Shown here: positions 1 through 47,433 of the stretch, piece by piece
Numbering within the stretch: the first letter of the stretch is position 1
How the letters are laid out: each line of letters starts with the position of its first letter
Source of the DNA: Actinocorallia herbida
GTDB lineage: Bacteria; Actinomycetota; Actinomycetes; Streptosporangiales; Streptosporangiaceae
Length of the DNA: 64,000 nucleotides
Assembly (NCBI RefSeq): GCF_003751225.1
Contig: NZ_RJKE01000001.1
Coordinates: 806,001-870,000, forward strand
Direction: 5' to 3'
The notes under the pieces: generated by a model
What the model saw: only the letters and a program-made list of their open reading frames with translations
The model's database searches: none
Told to the model about the DNA's origin: nothing
Position numbers and translations under genes: made by a program

Positions 1-401
1 ATGTCCTCACCGGACTGTCCTGGGACCGCGCCGGACGGCTCAAGGTCGCCGGGCGCGCCGCGATCTCGCGGGTCCAGGCCCGCGGCCAGGACGTCCAGCT
101 GATCCTGCGCGATGGCGACGAGACCATCACGCACCCCGTCTCCACCTCGGGGGAGGAGTTCGAATACCTCCTCGAACTGCCGGAAACGGGTCTGTGGACC
201 GTCGACGTCGAGGTGACCGTCCTCGGGCTTCGCCGGACCGCCCCGTTCGGGACGGTCCGGGCCGACGGGTTCAAGAACCCCAAGGTCCGGGAGGGGGTCA
301 CCCTCGACCTCTCCGAGGGTCTGTGGATCGGCATCGACGGGGGCGCACCGCCGGCCAGGCCCCGCCGATTCTGGGAGTTCGGGCGGTCTCGTCGGGCCTG
401 A
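1..401 (+). CDS. C-terminal fragment of a large surface-polymer transferase-like protein (partial)
   Basis: An open frame enters from the left edge (codons in phase with position 3) and stops with TGA at 399–401, so about 132 C-terminal residues are visible. They read as beta-strand-rich sequence (for example LTGLSWDRAGRLKVAG and GLWTVDVEVTVLGLRRTAPFG) with no enzymatic motif. Similar beta-sandwich segments occur in actinobacterial glycosyltransferase/CDP-glycerol glycerophosphotransferase proteins that make teichoic-acid-like wall polymers. That identification is from memory of the family and is tentative. The gene ends 89 bases before serA on the same strand. Confidence 0.45.
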   Translation, partial: VLTGLSWDRAGRLKVAGRAAISRVQARGQDVQLILRDGDETITHPVSTSGEEFEYLLELPETGLWTVDVEVTVLGLRRTAPFGTVRADGFKNPKVREGVTLDLSEGLWIGIDGGAPPARPRRFWEFGRSRRA

Positions 402-490
402 CACCCCGGCAGGGATAGACTCGGCACCAGGTTGGCACGAGGGCGTGGCGGCCGTTCACCTGCAAAGATCTCACCTCAAGGATTCTCACG

Positions 491-28696: not shown

Positions 28697-30049
28697 TCAG
28701 TGGTGGCGGAGGACCTGGTCGCGGACCGAGGCGTTGAGGGCGGCCAGGAGGGTGGGGGAGCGGCCGTCGGCGGAGGCGCGGAGGATGGTGGCGGTGGAGG
28801 GGGGCGGGACGTAGGTGAGGATCGCCGCGGCGCGCTCGACGGTGAGGGTGGCGATGAGGTCGGCGGCGGCCTGGGCGGGGAGGTCGGTGAGGATTCCGGC
28901 CGCGGTGCGCGCGTCGGTCCCGGCCAGGATCGCGGCCAGGGCCGTCGAGGTGAGGCCGTGGAGGAGGTCGGCGGCTTCCGCAGGGGGCAGGTGGCCCAGC
29001 GCGCGGCCCACCAGCGGGGCGGGGAGCGCCTGCACCACGTCGGCCGCGCCCGGTGTCCCGGGGAGAGCGGAGATGAGGGCCAGGCGGTCGGTGAACGACT
29101 CGGCCTCGAGGATGGCCGCGGCGCGTTCGGCGGCGGTACGGACCGGCCGGCGGGCGGAGGAGTCCGGGACCGCCACGGTCGCCGGGACCTGGGCCTGGGC
29201 CTGCCGCGGGATCGGCGGCCGGCTGGGGATGGGGTCCCGGACGGTCAGGACGGCGCGCAGCGCGCGGGCGAGTTCGGTGACGGTCATGCGGGTGCGCGGG
29301 GACGGGTCGAGGAGGCGGGCGAGGACGGGGGCGAGGGCACCCGCGTGGACGGGGGTGGGGACGGCGCCGTCGATGACCGCCCGGATCGTCGCGGCGACCT
29401 CGTCGGACTCGTCGGGCCGGAACGGAGAGTAGCCCTCCAGCGCCTGGAAGAGGGTGACGCCCAGGGCCCACAGGTCGGCCGACGGCTGCGCGGGCTGCCC
29501 GGAGAAGCGTTCCGGCGCCATGTACTCCACGGTGCCGATCATCATGTGCGCGGACGTCATCGGATCGGTCCCGGTGAGCTGGGCGATGCCGAAGTCCACG
29601 AGGTGGACCCGGTCGTCGGCCGACAGCAGGATGTTGTGCGGTTTCACGTCGCGGTGCAGCACCCCCGCCTTGTGCGCGGCGTTGAGCGCGCCCGCGACGC
29701 GCAGCCCGATCTGCGCCGCGATCCGCTCCGCGACCCGTCCCTCGGCCGCGATGATCTCGGCGAGGGACCGGCCGGGGATGTACTCCAGGACGATCCACGG
29801 ATCGCCTTCGTGCATGATCACGTCGTAGACCTGGACGATCGCGGGGTGCCGCAGCCGGGCCAGGGCCTGGGCCTCGCGCAGCGCCCTGCGCCGGAACTCC
29901 TCGTGATGGTTCGGATCGCGCTGGCGGACCAGTTCCTTCAGCGCCACCTGCCGGTCGAGCATGCCGTCCTCGGCCAGCCAGACGCTGCCCATGCCGCCCC
30001 TGCCGAGCTGGGAGAGCAGGCGGAAGCGGTCGTTCAGGACACGCTCCAT
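28697..30049 (-). CDS. Soluble Ser/Thr protein kinase with MgtE_N-like helical C-terminus
   Basis: A 450-residue PknB-type kinase. The glycine-rich loop is LGRGGMGSVW (15–24), with catalytic K38 (VALKEL), HRDVKPHN (132–139), DFG at 152 and APE (YMAPERF). The kinase domain ends near 265 and is followed by a Pro/Ala linker. The last 150 residues form repeated helices of the pattern LPAPLVGRALGHLPPAEAADLLHG…LAAILAGTDARTAAGILTDLP. This is like the superhelical N-domain of MgtE transporters. No transmembrane segment is present, so it should be cytosolic. Its ATG follows the DUF4407 gene stop by two bases, implying translational coupling. Confidence 0.9.
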   Translation of the reverse strand: MERVLNDRFRLLSQLGRGGMGSVWLAEDGMLDRQVALKELVRQRDPNHHEEFRRRALREAQALARLRHPAIVQVYDVIMHEGDPWIVLEYIPGRSLAEIIAAEGRVAERIAAQIGLRVAGALNAAHKAGVLHRDVKPHNILLSADDRVHLVDFGIAQLTGTDPMTSAHMMIGTVEYMAPERFSGQPAQPSADLWALGVTLFQALEGYSPFRPDESDEVAATIRAVIDGAVPTPVHAGALAPVLARLLDPSPRTRMTVTELARALRAVLTVRDPIPSRPPIPRQAQAQVPATVAVPDSSARRPVRTAAERAAAILEAESFTDRLALISALPGTPGAADVVQALPAPLVGRALGHLPPAEAADLLHGLTSTALAAILAGTDARTAAGILTDLPAQAAADLIATLTVERAAAILTYVPPPSTATILRASADGRSPTLLAALNASVRDQVLRHH

Positions 30050-30051
30050 CC

Positions 30052-31581
30052 TCAGAACTTCTCGTCGCCGAAGAGGTCCTCGTCGTCGCCCAGCCCGTCG
30101 AAGGAGTCGCCGGGCAGGCGGAAGGGGGACACCTCCATGTCCCGGATCTTCACGTGGTCGAGCGAGGTGTGCGCCTGGCCCGACTCGGCGGGCGTGCCCG
30201 TTGCGGGGTCCGTGGGCAGCGGGACCGTCGCCGGACGCGGTATCGCGGTGGTGGTGAAGGTGCCGTTCGCCCCGTTGCCGCTCACCGCGCCGTCGCCGTC
30301 GCGGTCCCGGTCGGTACCGGCTCCGCGCGCGCCGCCGTCGGCCTCGCCGGCCCTGCGGGAGTCGCCGGACCTGCCGCCGCCGTCGCGCTTCCAGGTGTCG
30401 TTGACCGACCATTCACGGTCGCCGTCGCCGCGGCCCCCGCCCAGCCCGCCGAGCCTGCCGCGCGAGTAGTTGCCCCGGGCCCTGCGGAGCTCGTCGCGCT
30501 TCTCGATCTCCAGGATGCGCTCGTAGTTCTCGGCCCGCAGCATCAGCTTGACCAGCACCGGCAGGCACTCGATGAGGAGGAAGAGCAGGAACAGCAGAAT
30601 GCGCGCGCCGGTCAGCGTGGTATTGCCCCCGGTGATCTCGTTGAGTGCTTTCAGCCGGATGAGAAGGCCATTGGCCGCGGTGTTCTGGGAGTCGAACTTC
30701 TCCTGGAGATCGTTCTGCCGATCGACCGCGGCGGCCAACTGCTCTTTCGCCTTCGGCAGTTCCGCCTTGGCCTCCGCGACGCGGCCCGCCCGGGCGCCCT
30801 CGTCCCTGGAGATGAGCTGGTTCTTGCGCTTCTCTATCTGACCCGTCAGATTGTCCACGCGCTTCTTGGACTTGAGGTAGGCATTGTGGCTCGCCTCGGC
30901 GAGCGGGCCGTTGCCTTTCTTGGTGCAGCCGGCGCCGCCGTACAGCTGGCACTGCCATTTGTCGTAGTCGTCGTCCATCTCGGTCTTGGCGCCCTCGAGT
31001 TCGGCCGAGAGGGCGATCACCCGGGGGTCCTTGGCCGGGTCGGCGGGGACGTCGCCGTTCTTGTTGATGGTCTCCTGGAACCCTTCGACCGTGGCCCGCA
31101 GCGTCGCGACGTCCTGGCCGTTGGCGCCGGTCTTCTGGCTCTCGGCGAACGTGTCCATGTCCCGCTGCTTGATCACCACCATCTGCGCGTTGATCTCGGA
31201 CTCGAAGATCCGCAGCACCAGCGGGGTGGAGATGACGAAGCCCATGAGCAGGGCCATCGCGATGCGCGGCGCCGCGGTGCGGAACCGGCGTGAGCCCTCG
31301 GTGGGCAGGGTGCTGACCAGCCACCGGTCGAGGCCCAGGATCATCAGGCCCCAGATGACCGCGACGGGCAGGGCGACGAGCCCCGACACGCCGACCGCGC
31401 TCGACAGGGCGAACCACATCGAGAAGACCGCGAGGACCGACGTGGTGAGGACGGCGCCGCCGATCCCCTGGAATTTGGGCCGTTCACTGGGGCACTGGGC
31501 CAGGACCTTGCGATTGGCGCCGGACAGGATGATCAGGAAATCGCGCACTACCTCGCCCCTCGGCACGACACCGTTCCCCAT
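30052..31581 (-). CDS. DUF4407 family membrane protein
   Basis: A 509-residue protein with hydrophobic helices near 42–85 and 108–126. A long coiled-coil/charged region (about 130–325, LSAELEGAKTEMDDDYDKWQ…) contains two cysteines (CQLYGGAGC). A further transmembrane helix is at about 333–352 (ARILLFLLFLLIECLPVLVKL). A disordered Gly/Arg/Asp-rich cytoplasmic tail ends in acidic GDDEDLFGDEKF. N-terminal RDFLIILSGANRKVLAQCPSERPKFQGIG is the DUF4407 hallmark. An alternative GTG start is at 31548. Co-transcribed with the downstream kinase, which might phosphorylate its Thr/Ser-rich tail. Function unknown. Confidence 0.88.
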   Translation of the reverse strand: MGNGVVPRGEVVRDFLIILSGANRKVLAQCPSERPKFQGIGGAVLTTSVLAVFSMWFALSSAVGVSGLVALPVAVIWGLMILGLDRWLVSTLPTEGSRRFRTAAPRIAMALLMGFVISTPLVLRIFESEINAQMVVIKQRDMDTFAESQKTGANGQDVATLRATVEGFQETINKNGDVPADPAKDPRVIALSAELEGAKTEMDDDYDKWQCQLYGGAGCTKKGNGPLAEASHNAYLKSKKRVDNLTGQIEKRKNQLISRDEGARAGRVAEAKAELPKAKEQLAAAVDRQNDLQEKFDSQNTAANGLLIRLKALNEITGGNTTLTGARILLFLLFLLIECLPVLVKLMLRAENYERILEIEKRDELRRARGNYSRGRLGGLGGGRGDGDREWSVNDTWKRDGGGRSGDSRRAGEADGGARGAGTDRDRDGDGAVSGNGANGTFTTTAIPRPATVPLPTDPATGTPAESGQAHTSLDHVKIRDMEVSPFRLPGDSFDGLGDDEDLFGDEKF

Positions 31582-31787
31582 TAGCCGGTGTCTCCACTTC
31601 TCCGACGGCCACCCTAGTTCGCCGGGTAGCCGAAATGGACGCTGTTACGTGAGTGATACTGATGGCCGCATGCGGTCAATCTGTGTCAGGTGCGGCAGAG
31701 TTATCCAATGGTGCCCGTAATCCAGTATGCGAGGGGAGTGGTTGGGCTAGCCTTCCCTGCGAATGGACCGGAGGGGGACGGTAAGCG

Positions 31788-33155
31788 GTGCCTGATGAGG
31801 ACCTGGGCAAGGCCCTCGTCGGAAGTCTGGCGGAGGTGTTCGGCACACGGCGGCTCGTCGTCGTCGAGATGACCGGCGCGCAGGTCTCGGTGTGGAAGGT
31901 GAAGCGCGATGACGCGGGTGTTCCCCGAATGCGCTCCGCGTCCTTCGCCGCCGAATCCGCGCCGGACCGGAGTGCGGCGATGGTGAGGGGACTTCTCGGC
32001 CGGCTGGGCGTCGGCCCCGCGGACACGGTGCTGGTCGTCGCCCGGCCCGGTGGCCCCGTTCCCGATCCGGGCCTCCGCGTGGGTGCGGTCCACACGATGG
32101 AGTCGGCGGCGCCGGTGCGGGAGGCGCTGCGCACCGCGATCGCCGACGAGCCGCTGACCCAGATGTACGAGCTCGTGACGCTGCGCGCCACCCCGCGCGG
32201 CCGGCTGGAGTTCGGCGCGGTGCCGCTGTTCCCGATGGGGACGCAGCGGGGCGCGACGGTCCGGGTCGCGGTGCGCTTCACCGCCCGCGAAGAGACGGGC
32301 ACCACGCTCGCCGTCGTGGCGAGCAGCCCGAGGGAACGCCGCTTCCGCCCCGTCGTCCTGGTCCGCGCGCACACCGCGCCCGCGGCCCGTGAGCTGCGGG
32401 TCGACCTCGACGGCCCCGGCAAGGTCGGCTTCCCGGACGTGCCGGGCCGGATCGTTCCCGAGAGCCGCCCGTGGCCGGAGCTGGTGGACGGCCTCCAGGG
32501 CAGGACCGCGCCGCGTCCGGCGGGCCGGACCGGCCATCTCGTCTGCGCGGTGGAGGCCGGGGTGCCCGGCAGCGGCGCCCAGGTCATGGCCGAGCGGATC
32601 GCGCTGCTCCGCAGCCTGGCGCAGACCTGTCCGCCCGGCATGCGGCTCTCGCTCCTCGCCTACGGCCCGCACGCCTTCCAACGCGCCGCCGATGACTCGG
32701 TGCCGGAGCTGCTGTGCTGGGCGGAGCCCGTGCCCGTCTTCCTCGACCGGCTGACGGACCTGGCGAACCGGCCCGCCGCGACCGAGGGCTATCCGCTGGC
32801 GGCCCGGCTGGAGTGCGCGCTCGCGCTGGTCGCCGCGCGGCTGGAGGACGGGGCCGAGGAGACGGCGCTGCTCGCGGTCGGTTCGCGGCCGGCCTTCCCG
32901 CCGCGGGTCCACCCGTCGCAGATTCTGCCGTGCCCGAAACGGCACGACTGGCAGCGGCTGGCCGCCGACCTGCGGCGGCGGGGCGTCCGCATCGCGGCGG
33001 TGCGCGACGGGCACGACGCCGCGGACTTCTGGCGGACCTTCGCCCCCGACGCGCTCTTCGACGCGGCGGCGCGGGACCAGGACGGGGTGGCCGAGGCACT
33101 ACGGCTGCCAGGGCCCGGCGAAGAGTACGCGTTCCCTCTGAGCGAGACGGAGTGA
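31788..33155 (+). CDS. vWA-like protein of a GTPase-associated operon
   Basis: 455 residues, GTG start. I do not recognise the family with certainty. The N-terminal half (1–190) is a beta-rich domain (RRLVVVEMTGAQVSVWKVKRD). The second half (about 240–440) has alternating hydrophobic strands and helices like a von Willebrand A / Rossmannoid fold (TGHLVCAVEAGVPGSGAQVMAERIALLRSLAQTCPPGMRLSLLAYG … RRGVRIAAVRDG). The metal-site DxSxS of true vWA domains is absent (VEAGVPGSG instead). It is five bases upstream of the GTPase-like gene and begins the plus-strand operon that ends at 37847. Confidence 0.6.
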   Translation: MPDEDLGKALVGSLAEVFGTRRLVVVEMTGAQVSVWKVKRDDAGVPRMRSASFAAESAPDRSAAMVRGLLGRLGVGPADTVLVVARPGGPVPDPGLRVGAVHTMESAAPVREALRTAIADEPLTQMYELVTLRATPRGRLEFGAVPLFPMGTQRGATVRVAVRFTAREETGTTLAVVASSPRERRFRPVVLVRAHTAPAARELRVDLDGPGKVGFPDVPGRIVPESRPWPELVDGLQGRTAPRPAGRTGHLVCAVEAGVPGSGAQVMAERIALLRSLAQTCPPGMRLSLLAYGPHAFQRAADDSVPELLCWAEPVPVFLDRLTDLANRPAATEGYPLAARLECALALVAARLEDGAEETALLAVGSRPAFPPRVHPSQILPCPKRHDWQRLAADLRRRGVRIAAVRDGHDAADFWRTFAPDALFDAAARDQDGVAEALRLPGPGEEYAFPLSETE

Positions 33156-33160
33156 GGCCG

Positions 33161-34123
33161 ATGGCGGAGGCGCCCGGCGGTCAGCAGCGGCCGCACAAGG
33201 CGGGCATCGTGATGTGGGGGGCGCCGGCCTGCGGCAAGACGACGTTCCTCGCGGCCCTGAGCATCGCGCTCGGCCGCAGGAACGTGGGCTGGAAGGTGAT
33301 CGGCGCGGACACCCCGTCGACGAACGCGCTGGTGAACTTCACCACGAAGCTCACCAAGGACCGGGTCTTCCCCAAGGCGTCCGACCTGGTCATCGAGCAG
33401 TACCGCTGGCGGCTGGTGGGCGAGCGGACCGTGCGCAGCTGGAAGCGTTTCCTGCGCGCGGAGACGCAGGAGGTGCGGCTCGCCCTCGACCTCGCGGACC
33501 TCGGCGGTGAGGGCTACTCCTCGACCCTGGTCTCCCCGCCCAAGGGCCTGATCGACAACCTCGTGAACGGCGGCGGGATCATCTTCCTGTTCGACCCGGT
33601 GCGCGAGTTCGAGGAGGGCGACTCCTTCACCCATTTCTTCGGGGTGCTGTCGCATCTCGCCCAGCACGTCATGGAGAACTCCGACCTCGTCGGCGGGCGG
33701 CTGCCGCACCACCTCGCCGTCGTCATCACCAAGTTCGACGAGCCGCGGGTGCTGGAGACCGCCGACAAGCTCGACCTGATCCAGTTCGACCCGGACGACC
33801 CCCAGGACTTCCCCAGGGTCGGCACCGAGGACGCCAAACAGCTCTTCACCGAGCTGTGCCGGATCTCGGCGACGGGCGACGCCGAGATGGTGCTGAACTC
33901 CATCGAGCAGTACTTCCTGCCGGACCGGACCAGGTACTTCGTGACGTCGGCGATCGGCTTCCACGTCGACAAGGACACCGGGACCTTCGACGCCGAGGAC
34001 TTCCAGAACGACATGGTCGACGCCCAGGGCTTCAAGCGCATCCGCGGCGCGGTCAACCCGATCAACGTGCTGGAGCCCCTGAGCTGGCTGGGGGAGAGGC
34101 TTACTTCCGGGAAGGGGACCTGA
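33161..34123 (+). CDS. P-loop GTPase-like protein of a GTPase-associated (GAP1) system
   Basis: A 320-residue NTPase. Walker A is GAPACGKTT (20–28). A G3-like segment reads LALDLADLGGEGYSS, and a TKFD sequence at 190–193 (VVITKFDEPRVLE) stands where the NKxD base-specificity motif of GTPases sits. A hydrophobic strand GGGIIFLFDPVREFEEGD resembles the 'double-GTPase/DO-GTPase' class described with GAP1 proteins in actinobacterial conflict systems; that naming is from memory and should be verified by profile search. Its stop is one base before the next ATG. Confidence 0.72.
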   Translation: MAEAPGGQQRPHKAGIVMWGAPACGKTTFLAALSIALGRRNVGWKVIGADTPSTNALVNFTTKLTKDRVFPKASDLVIEQYRWRLVGERTVRSWKRFLRAETQEVRLALDLADLGGEGYSSTLVSPPKGLIDNLVNGGGIIFLFDPVREFEEGDSFTHFFGVLSHLAQHVMENSDLVGGRLPHHLAVVITKFDEPRVLETADKLDLIQFDPDDPQDFPRVGTEDAKQLFTELCRISATGDAEMVLNSIEQYFLPDRTRYFVTSAIGFHVDKDTGTFDAEDFQNDMVDAQGFKRIRGAVNPINVLEPLSWLGERLTSGKGT

Positions 34124-34124
34124 C

Positions 34125-36059
34125 ATGAGCGGCGACCTGGTGGAGATCAGCGCCGAATGGGCCCAGTGGGGCAAGAGGGCGGACGACCGGGGCTACGAGG
34201 TGCTGGCGCACAGCGCCGCGCACTTCACCAGGGAGAACTTCCACCAGCTGCTCCAGCGCTTCTCCCCGGGCACCCCGGAGCGGCTGCCCCAGGTGACGAT
34301 CGGGTGGGCCGGGCAGAAGCGGACGCACTGGGTGGGGATCGGCATCCAGGAGGCGTCGAGCCGGCCCGACCGGGTCGGCCGCCGGGTCAGCGAGACCCGC
34401 TTCTTCTGCGTCCCCTACGAGATCCTCCGGCACAATCAGGTCACCTACCTCGACCTGTTCCAGCAGTTCTGGAACGTCTCGCTGCCCGATGAGGGCATGC
34501 CCGTGACGGTGACCGTGCCACTGCTGCGCCCCGACCACATCGAGGTGGACCTGACGTCGAAGGCCGAGAAGGCCGCCGCCCTGCTCATCACCGGCAAGCC
34601 CATCTGCGTCGTCGCCGGAGAGCGGGTCACCGTGCACGACAGGCTGCGGTTCCTCGACGCGGCGGCCGCGCTCCTGCCCTACGGGGTGCGCACGAAGCTC
34701 TCGGCCTCCACCTGGACGAGCTCCACGGCCGATCACAAGATCCGGTTCTCGTTCACCGACGAGCCGCGCGAGGACTCCTTCAATCTCTTCTGGGACAGCG
34801 AGGAACTCGTCCGGCCACGCGAGGAGCCTCCGAGGGCCACGTGGCAGATGGCCGTGAACTACCAGACCAGGCTGCGCGAAAGCCTGCGCCGCGACCACCT
34901 CGTGGGACGGCTCGCCGGGACGGTCGCGCCCGTCTCCTTCGAGGATCCGCACCTGCTGCTGAAGGCCTTGGACGACCGGCCTTCCGACGTCCACTTCGGG
35001 GACGCCGGAGGCCGGATGCCCGATGACCCTCCGGAGGTCGTGCGCGCGCTCGGCGCGGCCTTGGAGTCCGGCGAGACCGACAAGGTGGACTCGTGCCTCA
35101 AGCAGTTGAAGATCGCCAGTGCGGCGAACCATCCCGAGCACGTCAAGAAGCGGCTGCGCGAGAACATCATGACCTACCGCCTCTTCTCCGCGGCGGTGCG
35201 GGTACAGCCCTCGGCGAAGGTCGCGCTCTACCAGTCGCTCTTCGCCACGGCGTTCGGGCAGAGGCTGACGGAGGAGTCCTACAAGCAGATCGTGGACTTC
35301 GTGGGCAGGGCGTCGTTCTCGAAGGAGCACATCCAGGCGCTGCGCCAGCTCACGACGGGGGACGTGTGGCTCAAGTTCACCCTCGCCTGGTGGCAGGGCG
35401 CCGACGTCCTCGGTCAGCTTCTGCAGGCCGCGAGCCCGGACGAGCTGGTGACGGTGGCCGCGGACGTCAGGACGTCCCATGAGCTGCGCGAGGCGGTCTT
35501 CCGCGAGATCGACCGCAGGGATCCGAGCGAAGAACTGGCCACGGCCCTGCTCCGCCACGCCTTCCTGTGCGACGTGCTGCGGCGGCACCTCCCGGGTGTC
35601 GACGGCGCTCAGGCCGAGCGGCTCAAGAAGCTCCTGGCGAAGGTCTACGGCCATGAGGGCTTCGGACCGCGCGAACTCCAGGAGGCGCTGACCTCGGGCG
35701 AGGTCAAGGTGCTGCCGACGGTCGCCCTCATCGGCGCCGCGGCCGAGACGTACGGCGAAGGGGCCGGCGCCGCGCTCATCCACAAGTTCCTCGCGGTCGT
35801 GATCGAGCAGTCGGGCATGAACCGGTTGGAGAAGGACCGGATTCACGCGCTGCTCCAGGACGTGCCCGCGCCCCTGTACTCGCCCGCGGAGGCGGCCGGG
35901 TTCCAGGCGGGCCTGGTGGCGCACGCGTCCGGCGGCGATCTGCGATCGACCTGGCCCGGCCGGCTGCGCGCGGTGCTGGCCGGCCCGATCGCGCGGTCGA
36001 CGTTGATCGCCCTCGGGCTCGTCGCCGTCGTGGTCGCCATAGTCCTTCTGCTCGCGTAG
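34125..36059 (+). CDS. GAP1-like GTPase-associated protein with C-terminal membrane anchor
   Basis: 644 residues. The N-terminal domain (about 1–250) has the blocks LPQVTIGWAGQK, RFFCVPYEILRHN and LPYGVRTKLSASTWTSSTADHKIRFSFTD. The family match is to proteins annotated as GTPase-associated protein 1 (N-terminal type 2 plus middle domain). A long helical middle region (about 330–590) follows, and the protein ends in a single hydrophobic helix (about 620–643, TLIALGLVAVVVAIVLLLA). That helix probably anchors it to the membrane facing the cytoplasm. It is a paralogue of the next gene. Confidence 0.7.
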   Translation: MSGDLVEISAEWAQWGKRADDRGYEVLAHSAAHFTRENFHQLLQRFSPGTPERLPQVTIGWAGQKRTHWVGIGIQEASSRPDRVGRRVSETRFFCVPYEILRHNQVTYLDLFQQFWNVSLPDEGMPVTVTVPLLRPDHIEVDLTSKAEKAAALLITGKPICVVAGERVTVHDRLRFLDAAAALLPYGVRTKLSASTWTSSTADHKIRFSFTDEPREDSFNLFWDSEELVRPREEPPRATWQMAVNYQTRLRESLRRDHLVGRLAGTVAPVSFEDPHLLLKALDDRPSDVHFGDAGGRMPDDPPEVVRALGAALESGETDKVDSCLKQLKIASAANHPEHVKKRLRENIMTYRLFSAAVRVQPSAKVALYQSLFATAFGQRLTEESYKQIVDFVGRASFSKEHIQALRQLTTGDVWLKFTLAWWQGADVLGQLLQAASPDELVTVAADVRTSHELREAVFREIDRRDPSEELATALLRHAFLCDVLRRHLPGVDGAQAERLKKLLAKVYGHEGFGPRELQEALTSGEVKVLPTVALIGAAAETYGEGAGAALIHKFLAVVIEQSGMNRLEKDRIHALLQDVPAPLYSPAEAAGFQAGLVAHASGGDLRSTWPGRLRAVLAGPIARSTLIALGLVAVVVAIVLLLA

Positions 36060-36083
36060 TTCCCGATCTGATGGAGAGGCCGG

Positions 36084-37847
36084 ATGCACGACGGGATCGA
36101 GCTCGACGTCGAATGGGCGTGCGCGGACCCGGGGGAGGGGCTGCGCCACGGCCCGGGGGAGCTGCGCCGCGGCGACTTCGAGCGGGTCCTCGACCGCTAC
36201 GCGGTGGGCACGCCCGAAGATCTGCCGCAGGTGACCATCGCCTGGCTCGGGCAGGACGTGCGGGCCAGGGTCTGCTTGATCGTCCACGAGCCGGCGCCGG
36301 TGCCCGACCGTTACGGCCGCCGAGGGGTGCGCAGGCGTGTGTTCTGCGTGCCCTACGCGGGGCTCGCTCTGGGCCGGATCGGCTACACGGCCCTTTACGG
36401 GGCGCTCGCCGGGGTGGAGCTGCCCGCTGAGGGCGCGCTGGCGGTGTCCTTCCCGAAACCGGACCCGCGCTCGACGGAACGGCGGCCCGACGACCAGGCG
36501 CTGACCACGGCGGCGCTGCTGCTGACCGGCGAGCCGGTGGCCGTGCTGGATCCCGGCGGCCTCGACCTCGCCGCGCGGATCGGCTTCCTCGACGACGTCG
36601 CCGCGATGCTCCCGTTCGGCCTGCGGGCCCGGCTGTCGGTCTCGACCTGGGTGAGCGCGACCGTCGACCACGGCATCCGGCTGTCGTTCGCACGGACGGC
36701 CCGGAGCGTCGGCCACGCCGTGGTGTGGGGGCGGCACCCGGACGTGCCGGAGAGCCCAGAGACGCCGCAGGCTTATCTCGACCTGCTCGCCGCGCACAGC
36801 CGCAGGGACGTGCTCGTGCGGACGCTCGCGGCGATCACCGGCCCGATGTCGTTCAAGCGTCCCGAGGCGGTGCTGCACGCCCTGGACGGCGCGGTCCGCC
36901 CGCCCGAGGACTCGGGCGCGCGGCGGGCCGCCGGCACGTCGCCGGTGCGGCCCGGCCTGGACCGGCTGGCGGCCGCGCTGCGCACCCGCGCGCCCGGGGA
37001 CCTCGCGGCGTGCCTCGCCGACCTCAAGGCGCTTTCCGGCCTCCCGCAGCCGGTCGACCACCGGGCCGAGCGGCGCGAGATCATCGGCTCCTACGGGCTG
37101 CTGGGCGCCGGCATCGGGCGGACCCTGCCGGACCGGACCCTGGACGAGCTCTACGAGGTCCTGCTCGCCCTGTCGGTCGGGACCAGGATGACCGCGGACG
37201 CCGTCGAGGAGGCCCGGCGCATGGCCGGGACGCTGCACGGTCCGCTGGTCCGCGTCATGCGCGGGAAGGCGCCGGACGGCGAGGCCGCGTTCGACGCGCT
37301 GCTGCGCCCCGAAGAGCGCCGGTCGCTCCTGGCGTGGCTTCCGCTCGCCGACCTGCTGGACTTCGCGACGCGGCGGGACACGGACGCCGAGCTGTTCCTG
37401 GAGATCCTCGATCTCGTCGAGGAGCGGAGGCGCGAGCCGCGGCCGGGCGCCGATCCGGAGGCCGAGGCCGCGGCGGTGGCCGCGTTCGCCGCCCACCGGT
37501 ACCTCGGCGACGCGGTCATGCGGCGCTTCCCGGCCGACGGCGCCCGGCAGTTCCAGCTCTTCGACCGGGTGCTGCGGGCCGCGCACCCGGGCGGGCTCGG
37601 CCCCGCGGAGTTCGCCGCGGTCGCCGTGCCGGAGGGGCCGCTGCCGCCACCCGCCCTGCTGGCCGCGGCGCTCGACCGCTGCGAGGGCGACGCCCGCGCC
37701 CTGCTCGCCGAGCACTTCGGCCGCCCGCTTGTCGACCGCCTCGACCTGCCGCCCGCCCGGCGCGCGGCGCTGCTGGACCGCCTCGCCCCCGACGCGCAGG
37801 GCGCCGCCGCGGGCGGCACCGGGATGCGCTTCCGCCGCAGGCGCTGA
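36084..37847 (+). CDS. GAP1-like GTPase-associated protein, soluble paralogue
   Basis: 587 residues, starting 24 bases after the preceding paralogue with GGAGAGG upstream. It shares the diagnostic blocks (LPQVTIAWLGQDV, RRVFCVPYAGLALG, LPFGLRARLSVSTWVSATVDHGIRLSFA) in the same order. It lacks the C-terminal transmembrane helix and ends in a basic tail (MRFRRRR). A helical second half rich in Leu/Ala/Arg covers about 300–570. It is the last gene of the four-gene operon. I infer a complex with the GTPase-like protein and the membrane-anchored paralogue. Confidence 0.7.
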   Translation: MHDGIELDVEWACADPGEGLRHGPGELRRGDFERVLDRYAVGTPEDLPQVTIAWLGQDVRARVCLIVHEPAPVPDRYGRRGVRRRVFCVPYAGLALGRIGYTALYGALAGVELPAEGALAVSFPKPDPRSTERRPDDQALTTAALLLTGEPVAVLDPGGLDLAARIGFLDDVAAMLPFGLRARLSVSTWVSATVDHGIRLSFARTARSVGHAVVWGRHPDVPESPETPQAYLDLLAAHSRRDVLVRTLAAITGPMSFKRPEAVLHALDGAVRPPEDSGARRAAGTSPVRPGLDRLAAALRTRAPGDLAACLADLKALSGLPQPVDHRAERREIIGSYGLLGAGIGRTLPDRTLDELYEVLLALSVGTRMTADAVEEARRMAGTLHGPLVRVMRGKAPDGEAAFDALLRPEERRSLLAWLPLADLLDFATRRDTDAELFLEILDLVEERRREPRPGADPEAEAAAVAAFAAHRYLGDAVMRRFPADGARQFQLFDRVLRAAHPGGLGPAEFAAVAVPEGPLPPPALLAAALDRCEGDARALLAEHFGRPLVDRLDLPPARRAALLDRLAPDAQGAAAGGTGMRFRRRR

Positions 37848-37919: not shown

Positions 37920-38000
37920 TTACCTCGCTGGAGCGCCGGGGTTCGTGAGACCCGGTGATCCGGTCGAGTTCCCTGAGCCCATCGGGGATCGACTCCCCTT

Positions 38001-38076
38001 GCCTCCGTCGTCTAGTGGCCTAGGACGCCGCCCTCTCAAGGCGGTAGCGGCGGTTCGAATCCGCTCGGAGGTACCA
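38001..38076 (+). tRNA. tRNA-Glu (anticodon CTC), first copy, CCA encoded
   Basis: Acceptor GCCTCCG/CGGAGGT. The anticodon stem CCGCC/GGCGG surrounds CT-CTC-AA, and the T arm is GCGGTTCGAATCCGC. The 73-base body is followed by encoded CCA (38074–38076). Confidence 0.96.
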
Positions 38077-38113
38077 CTTCCTGTGAAGTGCGCAACAATT
38101 GCATATGAGGCTT

Positions 38114-38186
38114 GCCTCCGTCGTCTAGTGGCCCAGGACGCCGCCCTCTCAAGGCGGTAGCGGCGGTTCGAATCCGCTCGGAGGTA
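38114..38186 (+). tRNA. tRNA-Glu (anticodon CTC), second copy, no encoded CCA
   Basis: Differs from the copy 113 bases upstream by one D-loop base (CCCAGG for CCTAGG). It is followed by CGT, not CCA. A strong terminator lies directly downstream, so the pair is probably one transcript. Confidence 0.96.
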
Positions 38187-38196
38187 CGTACGCAAG

Positions 38197-40556: not shown

Positions 40557-42038
40557 TCAGTCCTGGTGCCCGAGGGTGACGTCGGTGGTCCCGGAGACGT
40601 ACCGGGCCTGCCCGTCGCCGAGGAGGGTGAGGGTCATCCGGGAGTCGTCCTCGCAGACGTCGTCCATCCTGATGACGATCTTCTCGGAGCTCGCCCAGGT
40701 GAGGCTGCCGAGCGTCTTGCACCGGTTCTCGCCGCGCTCCAGCTGGATCTCGGCGATGTGCGCGCCCACCGATCCCTCCTCGATGTCGACCCGGAGGGAG
40801 AACACGTCGGTCTCCTCCTCCCAGGTCCCGACGAACGCCGGGGGCACCGCGGGAAGCGTCGCACCGGGCGAGGGCGCGGCGGACGAGGACCCGGTGGACC
40901 CGGTTCCGGCGGTCTCGCGCTCGCCCGTGCCGGGCGATCCCTGCGGCCGGAACACGAACGCGCCGAGCGCGACCGCGAGCACGGCCACCGCCACGGCGAT
41001 CGCCTTGCCCTTGCCGGGCCGCTTTTCGCCGCCGTCCGAGCCGGGCGGGGGCGGCGGCACCCGCGTGGTCGCGGGCTCGACGTCAGGACCGGGCGCCCCG
41101 TATGCGGTGCCGGGCACCTCGGGCACCGGCACGGTGGGGAGGGGCGTGATAGGTCCGGTCGCGGGCCCGGCGAAGGCGGGCACGGAGGGTTCCGCGGACG
41201 GGAGGGACGCCGCGGGCGGGACCTGGCTCGCGCGGTCGAGCATGGCCGTCGTCTCGGCGGCGGTGGGACGGGCGGCGGGGTCCTTGCGGAGGAGGGCGTG
41301 CAGCACGGGTGCGAGGGGTCCGGCGTTGGCCGACGGTGAAAGCTCCTGCTGGAGGATGGCCACGAAGACGGCGCTCGGAGAGGGCGCGGCGAACGGGGAG
41401 CGTCCCTCGACGGCGTAGTAGAGGGTCGCGCCGAGCGACCAGAGGTCGGCGGCGGGCCCGACGGGCTGGGCGGCGACCTGCTCCGGAGCCATGAAGCTCG
41501 GCGTGCCGAGGACCGACCCCGTCTGGGTGAGATGCCCTTCGCCCTCGACGGCGGCGATCCCGAAGTCGGTGAGGACGACCCGCTCGTCCTCGAGGAGGAT
41601 GTTCGCGGGCTTGATGTCGCGGTGCACCACCCCGTGGGCGTGCGCGGTCTCCAGCGCCGCGAGGACCGCCCTGCCGATCCGGGCCGCCTCACGCGGGCGG
41701 AGCGGTCCGTCGGCCTTGACGGCGTCGGCGAGCGAGCGCCCCCGGACCAGCTCCATGACGATCCAGGGGATGCCCTCGCCGTCGGTCACCCGGTCGTGCA
41801 CGGTGACGATGCCGGGGTGCTTGAGCATCGCCGCCGCCAGGGCCTCGCGCTCGACCCGCGCCACGAGCTGGTCGCGGGTCTGGTCGCTCAGCCCCGGCGG
41901 CAGGACGAGCTGCTTCAGGGCGACGTCGCGCCGCAGCCGTTCGTCGGCCGCCTGCCAGACGACGCCCATGCCGCCGCGGCCGAGGATCCGGGTGAGCCGG
42001 TAGCGCTCCGCGACGAGGGCGCCGGGGGAGTGGTCCAT
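40557..42038 (-). CDS. Transmembrane Ser/Thr protein kinase
   Basis: 493 residues. The kinase domain is at about 12–270, with LGRGGMGVVW (19–28), K42, HRDIKPAN (139–146), DFG at 158 and MAPEQ. A Pro-rich linker (about 275–340) leads to one transmembrane helix near 344–362 (AIAVAVAVLAVALGAFVF). An extracytoplasmic domain of about 110 residues (from GTWEEETDVFSLRVDI to DVTLGHQD) with two cysteines may be a ligand sensor. The domain has no PASTA repeats. It is the neighbour of a small HATPase protein on the same strand, 46 bases apart. Confidence 0.93.
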   Translation of the reverse strand: MDHSPGALVAERYRLTRILGRGGMGVVWQAADERLRRDVALKQLVLPPGLSDQTRDQLVARVEREALAAAMLKHPGIVTVHDRVTDGEGIPWIVMELVRGRSLADAVKADGPLRPREAARIGRAVLAALETAHAHGVVHRDIKPANILLEDERVVLTDFGIAAVEGEGHLTQTGSVLGTPSFMAPEQVAAQPVGPAADLWSLGATLYYAVEGRSPFAAPSPSAVFVAILQQELSPSANAGPLAPVLHALLRKDPAARPTAAETTAMLDRASQVPPAASLPSAEPSVPAFAGPATGPITPLPTVPVPEVPGTAYGAPGPDVEPATTRVPPPPPGSDGGEKRPGKGKAIAVAVAVLAVALGAFVFRPQGSPGTGERETAGTGSTGSSSAAPSPGATLPAVPPAFVGTWEEETDVFSLRVDIEEGSVGAHIAEIQLERGENRCKTLGSLTWASSEKIVIRMDDVCEDDSRMTLTLLGDGQARYVSGTTDVTLGHQD

Positions 42039-42084
42039 GGGTTCATCGTCGCACGGGCGAAGCGGGACCAACCCCCCATGCGGT

Positions 42085-43448: not shown

Positions 43449-46400
43449 TCAGCGGCGGCCGATGGTGCGGGCGGCGGCCGCGGCGATGGTGGAGGCGAGG
43501 ATCCAGCCCGCGGCGACCAGGAGGAAGGAGAACCACTGGTCGGCGCCCGCCGGGTTGAAGGCGCGCTCCTGTCCCAGGTCGACGATGGGCAGGAGGAGGT
43601 CGAGGGTGTAGATGATCGCGTTGAAGTGCGGGTGCTCGTCGGCCTTGATGGGCTGCGGCGGTGAGACGGCGAAGACGATGGATCCCAGCGCGACGAGGAG
43701 GGCCAGCCAGGTGGCGGCGCGCAGCGGCTGGTAGCCGAACCCGACCGTGGCGTCCTGGAGCCTGCCCCACACCCGGCCCGTCCAGTCCGCGCCGTCGCTC
43801 TGGCGCCGCTCCCGGGCCAGGAGGACCGCCTGCGCCTCCCGTTCCTGCCCGGTCTGGGTGTAGTGCGCGGCGAGCTGCTCGTACGGCTGCGGCTGGAAGC
43901 CGTCCTCGTCGCGGCGCAGCCACTCCAGCCGCTTCTCGGCGGGCATCCGCGGCTCCAGCGCCTCGTAGGTGAGGCCGTTCAGGCCGATGACCTCCGGCCA
44001 CGACGTGGCGTCGTCGCACAGGACGCCGAGCCTGGCGTGCTCGAGGTCGACCGCGCCGACGAGCTTGTCCGGCCGCAGCGTCAGGCGGCCCGCCTGGAGG
44101 CCGCGCGCTTCGACCGCGTACCCGCCGGGGTTCTCCAGGTCCGCGTCGGTGAGCTGGAGGATGCGGCCGATCTTCGCCTCGGCGACGCGCAGCACTCCGT
44201 CGATGCGGGAGCGGCCGAGGAACACGTCGCCGGTCACGTCGGCGAGCGAGAGCCGCAGCGCCACGTTCCCCGGATGGGCGAACACCGCGTCCCTGCCGTC
44301 GACCATGTCGACGATCCGGGCGCCGCGCAGCGCCACCTCCCCGGTGATCCTGGCCCGGTTCATCCGCAGCGAGCCCGCGCTGAGCCCGTCGCCGACGATC
44401 GCCTTGGCGCCGTCGCCCTCCAGCCTGGAGCCCTCCATCCGGACCTCGCCGCTCACCTGGGAGCCGCGCAGCATGATCCGGCCCTCGGCGGTCAGGCCGG
44501 GCGCCCAGATGCCCCCGGTCGTCAGCCAGTCCGCGCCGAGCGCGATGCCGCCCGGATTCCGCAGCACCGCCTCGGCGAGGTCGATGACGCTGGTCACGGT
44601 CGTGCCGCGGACCGAGACCACCCCGTCGGCCTCGAGCCCGGAAAGGTAGATGTTGACGGCGGTGGACCCCTCGACGGTGAAGGCGTAGCCCTTCTCGTCG
44701 GCCGTCGCGCGGGCGTTCCTCGCGGAGATGTCGCGCGCTATCTGGGTGCCGCGCATGGAGACGCGCCCTTCGGCGCGCACGTCGTCGAGGTTGATCCGGG
44801 CCGCGCTCATCCCCCCGGCGACCAGGGAGACCCCGCGCAGCCCGGCCGCGATCCGCGCCTGGCGCAGGTCGAGGTCGCCGACGACCTGGGCGCCGCGCAG
44901 CGAGATCCGGCCCGCGATCCCGGCGTCCCAGCCGAGGACGTGCACGGCCTGGAGGCCGTCGGCGGAGAGCGCGCGGCCTTCGAGGTCGCGGCCGACCTCG
45001 GCGGAGACGAGGTTGACGTCCCCGGAGATCTCCGCGGCGCGCAGCGAGATCCGGCCCGCGGCCTTGGCGGACTCCAGGGTGAGGCCGCCCGCGGCGAGGC
45101 CGTCGGCGGAAAGGGACAGGCCGGTCTCGTCGGCGGCCAGGGACCCGGAGGAGAAGTCGACCTCCCGGATGACCTGGGCGTCGTCGAAGACGAGCAGGCC
45201 CTCCGCGCGCAGACGCGCCGCCCGCACGCCGCCCGCGTGCAGGCCCGCGGCGCTGAGCGCGGTGCCCTCGGCACCTCCCGCGAGGACCGCGAGGCGCAGG
45301 TCGAGTTCGCCGGTGACGCGCGCGTCGTCCAGGGAGACCAGGCCCACGGCGTGCGCGCCGCCCAGGGCGAGGTGGGCGGCGTCCATGCCGTCGGCGACGA
45401 ACGCGAGGTCGTCCTCGCCCGCGGTGAGCCTGGCGTCGCCGAAGCGGACGTCCCCGGCGAAGGTCGCGCCGCGCAGCGTCACCCTGCCTTCCGCGGTGAG
45501 CCCTTCGGCCGACAGCGCGCCCGCGTGCGCCCGGTCGACGCGCAGCGCGTACCCGTCCTGCCCCGCGACGAGCACGGCCTGGTCGAGGCCGGCCTCGCCG
45601 ATCCGCGCGTTGCGCAGGGACACCCGGCCCGTCGCGTGCAGCCCGTCGAGCTTGACGGTCGCCGCGGTCATCCCGTCGGCGGCGAACGCGACCCCGTCGG
45701 CCGCCGCGGTGACGCGCGCGCCGGGCAGCACCACGTCGCTGATGAGCTGGGCGTTGACCAGCCGGACCTGGCCGCCGTCGACGACGAGGCCGCGGCCTTC
45801 CAGCCCCGACATCACCGCGCCTTCGAGGTTCAGCGAGGCCCGGTCCAGCCTCGCGTTGTTGAGGGTGAGGTGGCCGCGCAGGGTCGCGCCGATGAAGCGG
45901 ACCTCGCCCTCGGCCCGGAAGCCGTTGTTCATCCAGACCGATCCGTGCGCGGTGATCCCGCCCGCGCTGACCGCCACCCCGCCCGGGTTGCGCATCTCCG
46001 CGCCCGAGAGCGTGAACGGCCCCTCGATCTGGGAGTTGTCGACCAGCAGCGCGGCCCACTGGCCGGCCGCCTCCACCGAGGCGTCGGTGAAGTTCAGCCG
46101 GCCGCCGAACCGCGCGTGGGTCAGCCGGACGCTGCCCTTGGCGGCGAACCCCCGGTCGAAGTTGGCCATCCCGCTCACCCGCAGGCCCTCGCCGTACAGG
46201 GCGGTCTTCTCCGGGCCGCCGCCGAGCACCGCGCCCGACATGTGGATCTCGCCCTCGATCCGCGCGTGGTCGAGCCTGACCTCGCCGTCGATGATCGAGC
46301 CGCGCAGCGACAGCAGGCCGTCGAGGTGCAGCCTGGCCAGGCCGAGACCGGGCATCCGGCAGCGGACGAACCGGACGGTCCGGGTCGTGGACTCCATGAA

Positions 46401-46673
46401 CTGCGGCGCCTCGTCGAGCACGCACTCGCTGAGGACGAGGGGGCAGCCGGCCGTCGCGGCGCGCAGTTCGAGCCGTCCGGTGATCCGGGCGCCGCGCAGC
46501 CGCACCCCGGGCGAGCGGCCTGGCTCGGCTTCGCAGGCCCCGAGCAGCAGCGCGGAGATCACCCGCGCGCGGATCTCGCGGTCGCCGTCCTGCCGGGTCA
46601 GATCGACCGTCGCCCCGTCCGGATAGCACGCCCAGAGCCGCCGCTCCGCCTCGGTCAGCCCCTCCGGAACCAT
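43449..46673 (-). CDS. Giant beta-solenoid membrane protein
   Basis: 1074 residues. After an N-terminal capping region (about 1–60, MVPEGLTEAERRLWACYP…), some 850 residues consist of short repeats. Their pattern is G-x-[VI]-x-[LM]-R-G-A-x-[IV]-x-G-[DE]-[VL] (for example EGRVSMRGTQIARDISARNA, AGRISLRGAQVVGDLDLRQA), as in right-handed beta-helical/pentapeptide-type solenoids. After a charged segment (WLRRDEDGFQPQPYEQLAAHYTQTGQEREAQ) there are two transmembrane helices, at about 983–1003 and 1047–1068. Homologues in actinomycetes are sometimes annotated 'membrane-associated oxidoreductase', but I see no cofactor motif. Alternative starts lie a few codons upstream. Confidence 0.8.
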   Translation of the reverse strand: MVPEGLTEAERRLWACYPDGATVDLTRQDGDREIRARVISALLLGACEAEPGRSPGVRLRGARITGRLELRAATAGCPLVLSECVLDEAPQFMESTTRTVRFVRCRMPGLGLARLHLDGLLSLRGSIIDGEVRLDHARIEGEIHMSGAVLGGGPEKTALYGEGLRVSGMANFDRGFAAKGSVRLTHARFGGRLNFTDASVEAAGQWAALLVDNSQIEGPFTLSGAEMRNPGGVAVSAGGITAHGSVWMNNGFRAEGEVRFIGATLRGHLTLNNARLDRASLNLEGAVMSGLEGRGLVVDGGQVRLVNAQLISDVVLPGARVTAAADGVAFAADGMTAATVKLDGLHATGRVSLRNARIGEAGLDQAVLVAGQDGYALRVDRAHAGALSAEGLTAEGRVTLRGATFAGDVRFGDARLTAGEDDLAFVADGMDAAHLALGGAHAVGLVSLDDARVTGELDLRLAVLAGGAEGTALSAAGLHAGGVRAARLRAEGLLVFDDAQVIREVDFSSGSLAADETGLSLSADGLAAGGLTLESAKAAGRISLRAAEISGDVNLVSAEVGRDLEGRALSADGLQAVHVLGWDAGIAGRISLRGAQVVGDLDLRQARIAAGLRGVSLVAGGMSAARINLDDVRAEGRVSMRGTQIARDISARNARATADEKGYAFTVEGSTAVNIYLSGLEADGVVSVRGTTVTSVIDLAEAVLRNPGGIALGADWLTTGGIWAPGLTAEGRIMLRGSQVSGEVRMEGSRLEGDGAKAIVGDGLSAGSLRMNRARITGEVALRGARIVDMVDGRDAVFAHPGNVALRLSLADVTGDVFLGRSRIDGVLRVAEAKIGRILQLTDADLENPGGYAVEARGLQAGRLTLRPDKLVGAVDLEHARLGVLCDDATSWPEVIGLNGLTYEALEPRMPAEKRLEWLRRDEDGFQPQPYEQLAAHYTQTGQEREAQAVLLARERRQSDGADWTGRVWGRLQDATVGFGYQPLRAATWLALLVALGSIVFAVSPPQPIKADEHPHFNAIIYTLDLLLPIVDLGQERAFNPAGADQWFSFLLVAAGWILASTIAAAAARTIGRR

Positions 46674-46773
46674 CCGCCCAATCTCGCAGAAACCACCCTC
46701 ATACGCCACACATCCGAAAAAAAGCCACCACAACTCGCGGTGCCGGATGAGCCGGTGCGCCTTGCCGGGCGGG

Positions 46774-47433
46774 TCAGTCGCCGGTCGGGACGGAAGGGTG
46801 GACCCGGTCGGCGATGTGCGACGGGACGGGGTAAGGCGCGGCGAGAAGGGGGTCGGGCCGGGGAGCCCCGTAGGAGGTGCGCAGAGGGAGGACGCCTGCC
46901 CAGAGGGGGAGGGCGTAGTCGTCCTCGTCGTCGACGGGCGGGCCCGTGCGGACCTTGACGGACGCCTCGGTGAGGGGGAGCGCGAGGACGAGGGTCGCGG
47001 CGAGCTCCTTGCGGTCGGGGGCGCGCACGGCGTCCCACTGGCCGGGGGCGAGCTGCTCGGTGATCGCGCGCAGCCCGGCGAGCCGCTCATCGGGGTCGGT
47101 CACCTTGCGCGGGGCGCCATAGACCATCGCCGAGCGGTAGTTGAGCGAGTGGTGGAAGGCCGACCTGGCGAGCACGATCCCGTCGAGATGGGTCACCGTG
47201 ACGCAGACCTCTCCGTCCAGCCGCAGCGACCGCGCGCCCGTGGAGCCGTGGAGGTAGAGGGTGTCGCCGATGCGGCCGTAGCCGGTCGGCACGACCATCG
47301 GGGCGCCGTCCGGGCGGACCACCCCGAGATGGCAGACGAGTCCGGCGTCGAGGATCGCGTAGAGGTCGGCGGTTTCGGTGCCCGCGCGGTCGGCGGCGCG
47401 GCCCAGCCTGGTGCGTTCGGTCGTCGAGAGCAT
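46774..47433 (-). CDS. Pyridoxamine 5'-phosphate oxidase-family FMN-binding protein
   Basis: 219 residues with the split-barrel PPOX fold. LVCHLGVVRPDGAPMVVPTGYGRIGDTLYLHGSTGARSLR is the FMN-binding half. CVTVTHLDGIVLARSAFHHSLNYRSAMVYGAPRKV is typical of the Nim/FMN-binding subgroup found next to MocR regulators. The ATG at 47433 was chosen over an upstream start (47517), because the added residues would cover the divergent promoter. It faces away from the MocR gene, which very likely controls it. Confidence 0.88.
   Translation of the reverse strand: MLSTTERTRLGRAADRAGTETADLYAILDAGLVCHLGVVRPDGAPMVVPTGYGRIGDTLYLHGSTGARSLRLDGEVCVTVTHLDGIVLARSAFHHSLNYRSAMVYGAPRKVTDPDERLAGLRAITEQLAPGQWDAVRAPDRKELAATLVLALPLTEASVKVRTGPPVDDEDDYALPLWAGVLPLRTSYGAPRPDPLLAAPYPVPSHIADRVHPSVPTGD

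Follow-up and report, generated by a model that had tools for sequence, protein, structure and literature searches.

What do six adjacent genes of Actinocorallia herbida, which encode a Ser/Thr kinase, a DUF4407 membrane protein, a von Willebrand factor A (vWA)-like protein, a GTPase, and two GAP1-like paralogues (A and B), do together, and do they belong together at all? The genes occupy positions 28697-37847 of a 64,000-nucleotide stretch, the window (positions 806,001 to 870,000 of contig NZ_RJKE01000001.1), of a genome that is 9.80 Mb long and consists of one contig; G+C content in the window is 68-78% per 2 kb. An earlier note on this DNA had described six genes in two divergent operons, which is accurate apart from the start of the kinase gene. 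On the plus strand, the genes for the vWA-like protein, the GTPase, GAP1-like A, and GAP1-like B follow each other with measured gaps of 5, 1, and 24 bases, which bears out the tight spacing that the note had pointed to. On the minus strand, the DUF4407 gene is followed by the kinase gene, whose ATG lies 2 bases past the DUF4407 stop codon. As judged from sequence comparison, the six genes are a real and widely conserved module that represents a divergent DO-GTPase2 system, with uncertain GAP1 membership of its partner proteins. Our preferred reading, to which we assign a probability of about 0.5, is that of a membrane-gated, kinase-tuned switch in which the divergent DO-GTPase2 system operates with GAP1-like partners.

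Conservation and linkage of the module

Gene neighbourhoods were compared among GTPase loci (labelled L) of genomes labelled G. The sample comprised 30 loci from a pattern scan, two taken by place (G000, G002), the window, and 36 loci chosen from the listed matches of a GTPase query in family genomes, i.e., 69 in total, of which 67 unique loci remained after two duplicates were dropped; it is non-random and favours close relatives, and its envelope and distance thresholds were set by us. The GAP1-like gene lies directly downstream of the GTPase gene in 62/67 loci and the vWA-like gene directly upstream in 55/67. A divergent DUF4407 gene adjoins in 42/67 loci and is followed by the kinase gene in 41/67. 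The full divergent set is likewise present in 41/67 loci, a lower bound for the sample because at least five loci (L056, L060, L067, L070, L092) are truncated on the upstream side of the GTPase gene. Under other thresholds and with duplicates included, DUF4407 plus kinase was counted in 40/69. Directly adjacent GAP1 twins occur in 15/67 loci. The pairing of kinase and DUF4407 beside the GTPase operon, for which the earlier note had set a neighbourhood check beforehand, is thus conserved.

Chance pairing of the two halves is rejected by this census because of the recurrence of the full set. More generally, it is very improbable that the kinase/DUF4407 pair and the GTPase operon are independent neighbours, adjacent by chance or through a shared regulator only. 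Independence would fit the 21 of 62 loci with GTPase and GAP1-like genes in which the full pair is missing, and the presence of DUF4407 elsewhere; the same divergent order in 41 loci and the existence of kinase-vWA and kinase-GTPase fusions speak against it. Possibly the GTPase-GAP1 core does not need the pair, which is incomplete or absent next to it in those 21 loci.

The linkage is also apparent at genome level. The GTPase query, scored on no more than six candidates in each genome as was the DUF4407 query, matched in at least 108 of 341 family genomes. Among the matches listed, DUF4407 is present in 99 of these 108 genomes versus 42 of the 233 others (Fisher's test 1e-40, uncorrected for kinship). 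The count used 119 entries, one of them empty (G318), with five listed places left out, and 141 of the 142 DUF4407 genomes over the cut-off entered it. A listed DUF4407 gene lies within 12 kb at 100 and within 5 kb at 81 of the 123 listed GTPase places (107 genomes). At least 30 named loci from the pattern scan belong to Actinomadura, Microbispora, Herbidospora, Streptosporangium, Actinoallomurus, Frankia, and Protofrankia, as well as to Lentzea, Streptomyces, Actinoplanes, Paractinoplanes, Actinophytocola, and a Rubrobacter metagenome-assembled genome. The A. herbida genome itself holds a second module copy in flipped orientation, and the congener G002 carries the set with one GAP1-like gene at a place that is not syntenic.

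Among more distant loci, the surroundings of the core differ. An Actinomadura locus (L054) has AAA ATPase domains next to it, along with a weak match to HSP70 and a radical-SAM protein, and in the Streptomyces locus L061 a CHAT protein is the neighbour. A search for plasmid proteins gave one weak match.

The GTPase

Profile matches show that the GTPase is a divergent DO-GTPase2 member. The earlier note had called it a P-loop GTPase-like protein and had proposed profile searches beforehand; the match to DO-GTPase2 (PF19993) narrowly passes the curated cut-off (28.1 bits against 27, E 1.9e-6) and upholds the assignment. Its C-terminal 272 amino acids alone reach 15.3 bits, under the cut-off, and 28/30 family members match the model at E 0.05 or better. 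When a profile of the 30 members was aligned by hhalign with four canonical GTPases, which adjoin GAP1-N2 genes and two of which come from the A. herbida genome, the probability was 99.4 (E 9e-22, 259 columns). The two canonical A. herbida copies score 47.8 and 35.5 bits for PF19993. GAPACGKTT and TKFD are present in the protein, and the columns of P-loop, DxxG, and TKFD are invariant or nearly so in alignments of 19 and 30 members. Only 19 residues precede the P-loop, which leaves no room for N-terminal zinc ribbons; conserved cysteine pairs stand N-terminal in the four canonical copies. When the PDB was searched by sequence with the GTPase, DUF4407, and GAP1-like proteins, nothing useful emerged.

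The GAP1-N2 model matches the A. herbida genome at two places, both outside the module. These are loci with DO-GTPase2 genes (G000:C1, positions 7103972 and 2494378; L083, L084), one of them near an HSP70 gene. With these two loci besides the module, the genome therefore contains several GTPase systems.

The GAP1-like proteins

GAP1-like A and B are 35% identical over residues 6-560. The match of A to GAP1-M (PF20014) is weak (E 0.018, 15.7 bits against a cut-off of 24), as it is for the 7/30 members of the GAP1-like family that match this model (best E 0.0019). None of the 30 members matched GAP1-N2 (PF20013) or GAP1-C (PF20052) at E 0.05; GAP1-C was found in one of two canonical GAP1 copies scanned. 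GAP1-like B has no Pfam match of its own. The GAP1 label of the earlier note thus finds no support in the form given: weak GAP1-M matches and gene order are what speak for it, and the genome's GAP1-N2 matches lie elsewhere. As to the membrane-anchored GAP1 that had also been put forward, a hydropathy scan predicted a C-terminal transmembrane (TM) segment on copy A, which sustains the idea for this copy, and none on copy B.

Many regulators of GTPases have a longin fold or one akin to it. The predicted model of GAP1-like A (predicted local distance difference test (pLDDT) 81.9, predicted template modelling score 0.50) opens with the order beta-beta-alpha-beta-beta-beta-alpha-alpha, i.e., that of a longin domain (beta-beta-alpha-beta-beta-beta-alpha). 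Its third Foldseek match is TagF (9t0n; probability 0.99, E 0.01). TagF has been likened to the longin domain of Sec22b (PMC3325213). TagF was absent from the matches when the PDB was searched by sequence with the GAP1 profile. In the literature, TagF goes with a Ser/Thr kinase in the threonine-phosphorylation pathway of the type VI secretion system (T6SS), so that the two cases share association with such a kinase and a weakly similar predicted fold; T6SS families had no match among the 20 window proteins scanned. The word longin was not found in the main text of PMC7159879, the source of the 2020 DO-GTPase/GAP1 prediction.

The twin state of the GAP1-like genes is old in five groups of loci, to go by their sequence clustering. 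In these groups, first copies cluster with first and second with second copies, and recent duplication was rejected. L107 is an exception, and the twins of L013 are nearest each other, though distant. GAP1-like A and B of the window are both nearest to second copies of other loci.

The vWA-like protein

The vWA-like protein has no Pfam or NCBIfam match, and just 2/24 members of its family have one weak Pfam match each. Its AlphaFold2 model (pLDDT 86.6) matched several vWA structures in Foldseek at E below 1e-6 (e.g., 1shu, E 3e-7), as well as Hsp70 (DnaK 5nro, E 1.9e-7). We read it, from this model, as an Hsp70-like part joined to a vWA domain, and the predicted structure lends support to the vWA-like label of the earlier note. 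The domain borders (Table 1) were drawn by eye on the model, and its parts were assigned from the order of strands, as Foldseek gave no aligned ranges. The classical DxSxS metal site is absent, and most of the 24 members have a CAVE-type sequence there. The likeness to Hsp70 lies in the structure matches; the protein differs in its ATPase domain, which is partial by eye, and in the attached vWA domain.

The kinase and DUF4407 pair

The kinase matches PF00069 (E 4e-51) and MgtE_N (PF03448; E 1.3e-14), as do 26/26 module kinases scanned, and its catalytic columns K38, HRD, and DFG are invariant in 26 homologues. No TM segment is evident from its sequence, and a literature search on MgtE and kinases returned nothing relevant. 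Matches of the kinase to PD-T4-6 and MAD6 were set aside as generic kinase similarity; the second kinase of the window, at 40557, shows them likewise.

The DUF4407 protein (PF14362, E 1.9e-77) has four hydrophobic segments by hydropathy, which start at about residues 40, 63, 105, and 319, and a WxCxL...C cysteine pair in the long segment between segments three and four. Among 53 DUF4407 domains examined, 42 have four hydrophobic segments and 39 have the WxCxL...C pair. The distribution of positive residues, which lie close to the N terminus and in the stretch linking segments two and three, suggests an extramembrane position on the outer side for the long cysteine-paired segment. Two DUF4407 genes were detected in the A. 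herbida genome, one in each module copy.

DUF4407 also occurs with other partners. In 12 of 16 GTPase-free DUF4407 loci, picked from 54, it is the last gene of a second operon (L123-L127, L129-L133, L135, L138), preceded in order by a gene for a protein of about 300 amino acids (not found in L135), an NTPase gene, and a gene for a coiled-coil-like protein. The NTPase is nSTAND3 by Pfam in L125, the sole member scanned, and a protein that is cyclase-like by eye occurs in 11 of the 12 loci. Three other GTPase-free DUF4407 loci have a common partner of 504-amino-acid type.

This sharing between different switch operons is what one would expect of an exchangeable effector. The module might then serve in conflict with phages or with other strains, and DUF4407 would be a membrane-damaging effector that the GTPase/GAP1/vWA switch and the kinase restrain and, on infection, release. 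Its patchy presence (at least 108/341 family genomes) would suit such a system, and a conflict role has been proposed for DO-GTPase/GAP1 sets, some of which have effectors that act on membranes (PMC7159879). We consider this possible, if doubtful. The sharing of DUF4407 is equally compatible with a common sensor, and the protein is well conserved rather than hypervariable. PADLOC returned no family for DUF4407, the vWA-like protein, the C-terminal piece of the GTPase, or either GAP1-like protein, and its matches of the kinase are to models built on kinases generally.

Fusions of module parts and SAV_2336/AAA loci

Module parts are fused to each other and to other domains. L070 encodes a kinase-vWA fusion, L096 a trypsin-vWA-GTPase fusion (L096:14547-17267), L114 a SAV_2336-kinase-GTPase fusion (L114:9855-13154), and L111 a SAV_2336-WD40-AAA-GTPase fusion (L111:5283-10790); a SAV_2336-vWA fusion occurs at five loci. 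The GTPase domain is C-terminal in the L111, L114, and L096 fusions, where it might act as an adaptor.

The trypsin, STAND-like, and AAA fusions resemble conflict systems, which weakens another explanation, namely that filamentous actinobacteria use the module for signalling in development or under envelope stress, with no immune role and with the GTPase as a polarity or stress switch. MglA with MglB is the polarity-type switch with which the GTPase and its partners would be compared. An architecture that stays constant across many genera, with no obvious variable effector, would suit signalling, as would the kinase and membrane components, and DO-GTPases are predicted to act in membrane-related stress (PMC11237479). 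The scattered occurrence in the family genomes listed and the non-syntenic position in the congener G002 also argue against it, and we hold it to be rather unlikely.

In 7/67 loci, the part fused to the GTPase or vWA-like copy is a SAV_2336 protein encoded beside an AAA ATPase gene. SAV_2336 was called by NCBIfam in three of the seven, and a profile of those three found the other four. All seven stand next to a relative of the L013 ATPase gene, and all four of the adjacent ATPases scanned match AAA_5. Beside the second module copy, L013:77-7790 encodes an AAA_5 ATPase along with a protein that matches HSP70 and a SAV_2336-vWA fusion; the fusion gene stops two bases from the convergent GAP1-like gene. 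A caspase-Hsp70 assignment for L013:77-1783 was rejected; Pfam gives HSP70 only, and the N-terminal part is caspase-like by eye.

We take the SAV_2336/AAA ATPase pair to be a MoxR-vWA core; no model used says MoxR. Under this assumption, MoxR-vWA systems bear module parts at these seven loci, which would then be exceptions to the published statement that systems do not trade MoxR-vWA and DO-GTPase-GAP1 cores with each other (PMC7159879; SAV_2336 is not named in that text). Neither SAV_2336 nor such an ATPase matched among the 20 window proteins scanned or among the six module proteins. A merged actinobacterial network is a tentative extension, in which a longin-regulated GTPase hub would also drive MoxR-vWA systems and DUF4407 would be a common membrane port. 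Equally tentative is the layout of such a network, with two GAP1 partners, gating by DUF4407 and kinase, and GTPase and Hsp70-vWA parts that are shared. Our caution reflects the presumed identity of the SAV_2336/AAA pair. To go by the fusions, SAV_2336/AAA systems appear to be connected with GTPase systems, and if the former are MoxR-vWA, the published picture of separate cores would change. Were the merged network real, both system types would belong to one immune relay, and GTPase, STAND, and kinase switches would all use DUF4407 as their port in the membrane.

Comparison with GAP1-N2 systems

DO-GTPase/GAP1 systems were predicted in 2020 (PMC7159879). The module shares with the GAP1-N2 type, above all with its actinobacterial kinase theme, a DO-GTPase2 gene followed by a GAP1-like gene, nearby kinase and vWA genes, a TM segment on a GAP1, and the occurrence in actinobacteria. 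It differs in that its GTPase has no zinc ribbons and its GAP1-like proteins have no GAP1-N2 match, and it adds DUF4407 and a kinase with MgtE_N repeats. The kinase theme usually has an active kinase with a PP2C phosphatase and a standalone vWA protein (PMC7159879). PP2C and FNIII had no match among the 20 window proteins scanned, a weak failure for PP2C given the word "usually". As it fails on GAP1-N2, GAP1-C, zinc ribbons, and PP2C, the module is not a plain member of the GAP1-N2 systems or their kinase theme. Literature searches on DUF4407 and the family names gave no description of the six-gene set, those on DO-GTPase/GAP1 family names no experimental paper, and the search for DUF4407 did not return PMC7159879.

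A proposed membrane-gated, kinase-tuned switch

From the families, motifs, linkage, and fusions observed at these loci, and from the predicted folds, we infer sensing, phosphorylation, GAP1 action, and output as steps of the switch that we prefer. DUF4407 as input and the kinase as tuner would make up one arm, and the vWA-like protein, the GTPase, and both GAP1-like proteins the switch proper. Briefly, DUF4407 would sense envelope damage or invasion with the long segment that carries the cysteine pair, placed outside the membrane, and would hold the kinase by the MgtE_N-type repeats of the latter; the kinase would then tune the GTPase arm. The vWA-like protein, with its Hsp70-like part and vWA domain, might present the GTPase with a client or peptide. 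Both GAP1-like proteins would bind the GTPase by their longin-type N domain and thereby set its nucleotide state, with GAP1-A acting at the membrane and GAP1-B in the cytosol. As its output, the switch probably recruits a partner effector, whose gene may lie close by or at another place; SAV_2336 or peptidase proteins that bear GTPase or vWA-like copies are candidates. An immune role of the module is plausible in view of the published proposal and the fusions.

Several observations weigh against this switch. No killing effector was recognised among the six genes. Of the 21 loci that have GTPase and GAP1-like genes and lack the full adjacent pair, 20 are without an adjacent DUF4407 gene (four of them truncated on the upstream side) and L114 has DUF4407 only, and 53 of 150 listed DUF4407 places are away from any listed GTPase. 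Among the 53 DUF4407 domains, 14 are without the cysteine pattern and 11 have three hydrophobic segments. For the GAP1-like proteins, hhalign against five canonical GAP1 proteins aligned the GAP1-M region only (probability 0.9%, E 0.058). Foldseek of the GAP1-like A model found no solved structure at E 0.001 or better and ranked two chains of a designed repeat protein above TagF; the longin reading, drawn from strand order and one weak structural match, is a lead. The N-terminal part of the vWA-like protein gave no significant match to 15 DnaK sequences and one divergent Hsp70 (best E 0.095); the short, non-significant matches fall in the VILVGGSTRIP and VEVTFDIDANGILHVSA regions of DnaK.

The six-gene set is compact and widely recurring, and opens questions on GAP1, DUF4407, and phage protection to test.

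Gene calls and surroundings

Coordinates are compiled in Table 1. The kinase most likely begins at the ATG at 30049. The start at 30412 given in the earlier note was replaced, because the open frame that extends upstream to it traverses the DUF4407 gene in another frame.

Table 1 Features of the six-gene locus in window coordinates
Feature	Position	Strand	Description and basis
Ser/Thr kinase	28697..30049	-	450 aa; PF00069 and PF03448 matches
Kinase domain	residues 10-261, about 29267-30022	-	PF00069
MgtE_N-type repeats of the kinase	residues 350-426, about 28772-29002	-	PF03448
DUF4407 membrane protein	30052..31581	-	509 aa; PF14362
Divergent intergenic region	31582..31787		206 bases; sequence
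vWA-like protein	31788..33155	+	455 aa; AlphaFold2 model and Foldseek
Parts of the vWA-like protein (predicted)	residues 1-120; 121-230; 245-440		RNase H/actin-like half domain; 8-stranded beta, Hsp70 substrate-binding-like; vWA
DO-GTPase2-type GTPase	33161..34123	+	320 aa; PF19993
GTPase motifs	about 33218-33244; about 33497-33508; about 33728-33739	+	P-loop; DxxG; TKFD
GAP1-like A	34125..36059	+	644 aa; weak PF20014, predicted model, hydropathy
Parts of GAP1-like A	about 34137-34472; about 34596-34736	+	longin-like N domain; GAP1-M-like
Remaining parts of GAP1-like A	TM about 35988-36053	+	helical repeat domain, then predicted TM
GAP1-like B	36084..37847	+	587 aa; paralogue of A

Just past the module, two tRNA-Glu genes (CTC) lie at 38001-38187. 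A clean insertion of the module at this pair was rejected, as no empty site was definable in the congener G002. This genome has kept the tRNA-Glu pair and a helicase gene, and similarity starts at window position 37999; upstream of it nothing aligns except for a kinase-to-kinase match. G001 retains the helicase gene, and the stretch compared there yielded no tRNA. Further along the window, the second Ser/Thr kinase gene (40557-42071, minus strand) is without an MgtE_N match, and 43449-47090 encodes a 1213-amino-acid protein whose sole Pfam match at E 1e-5 is to pentapeptide repeats (PF13576).

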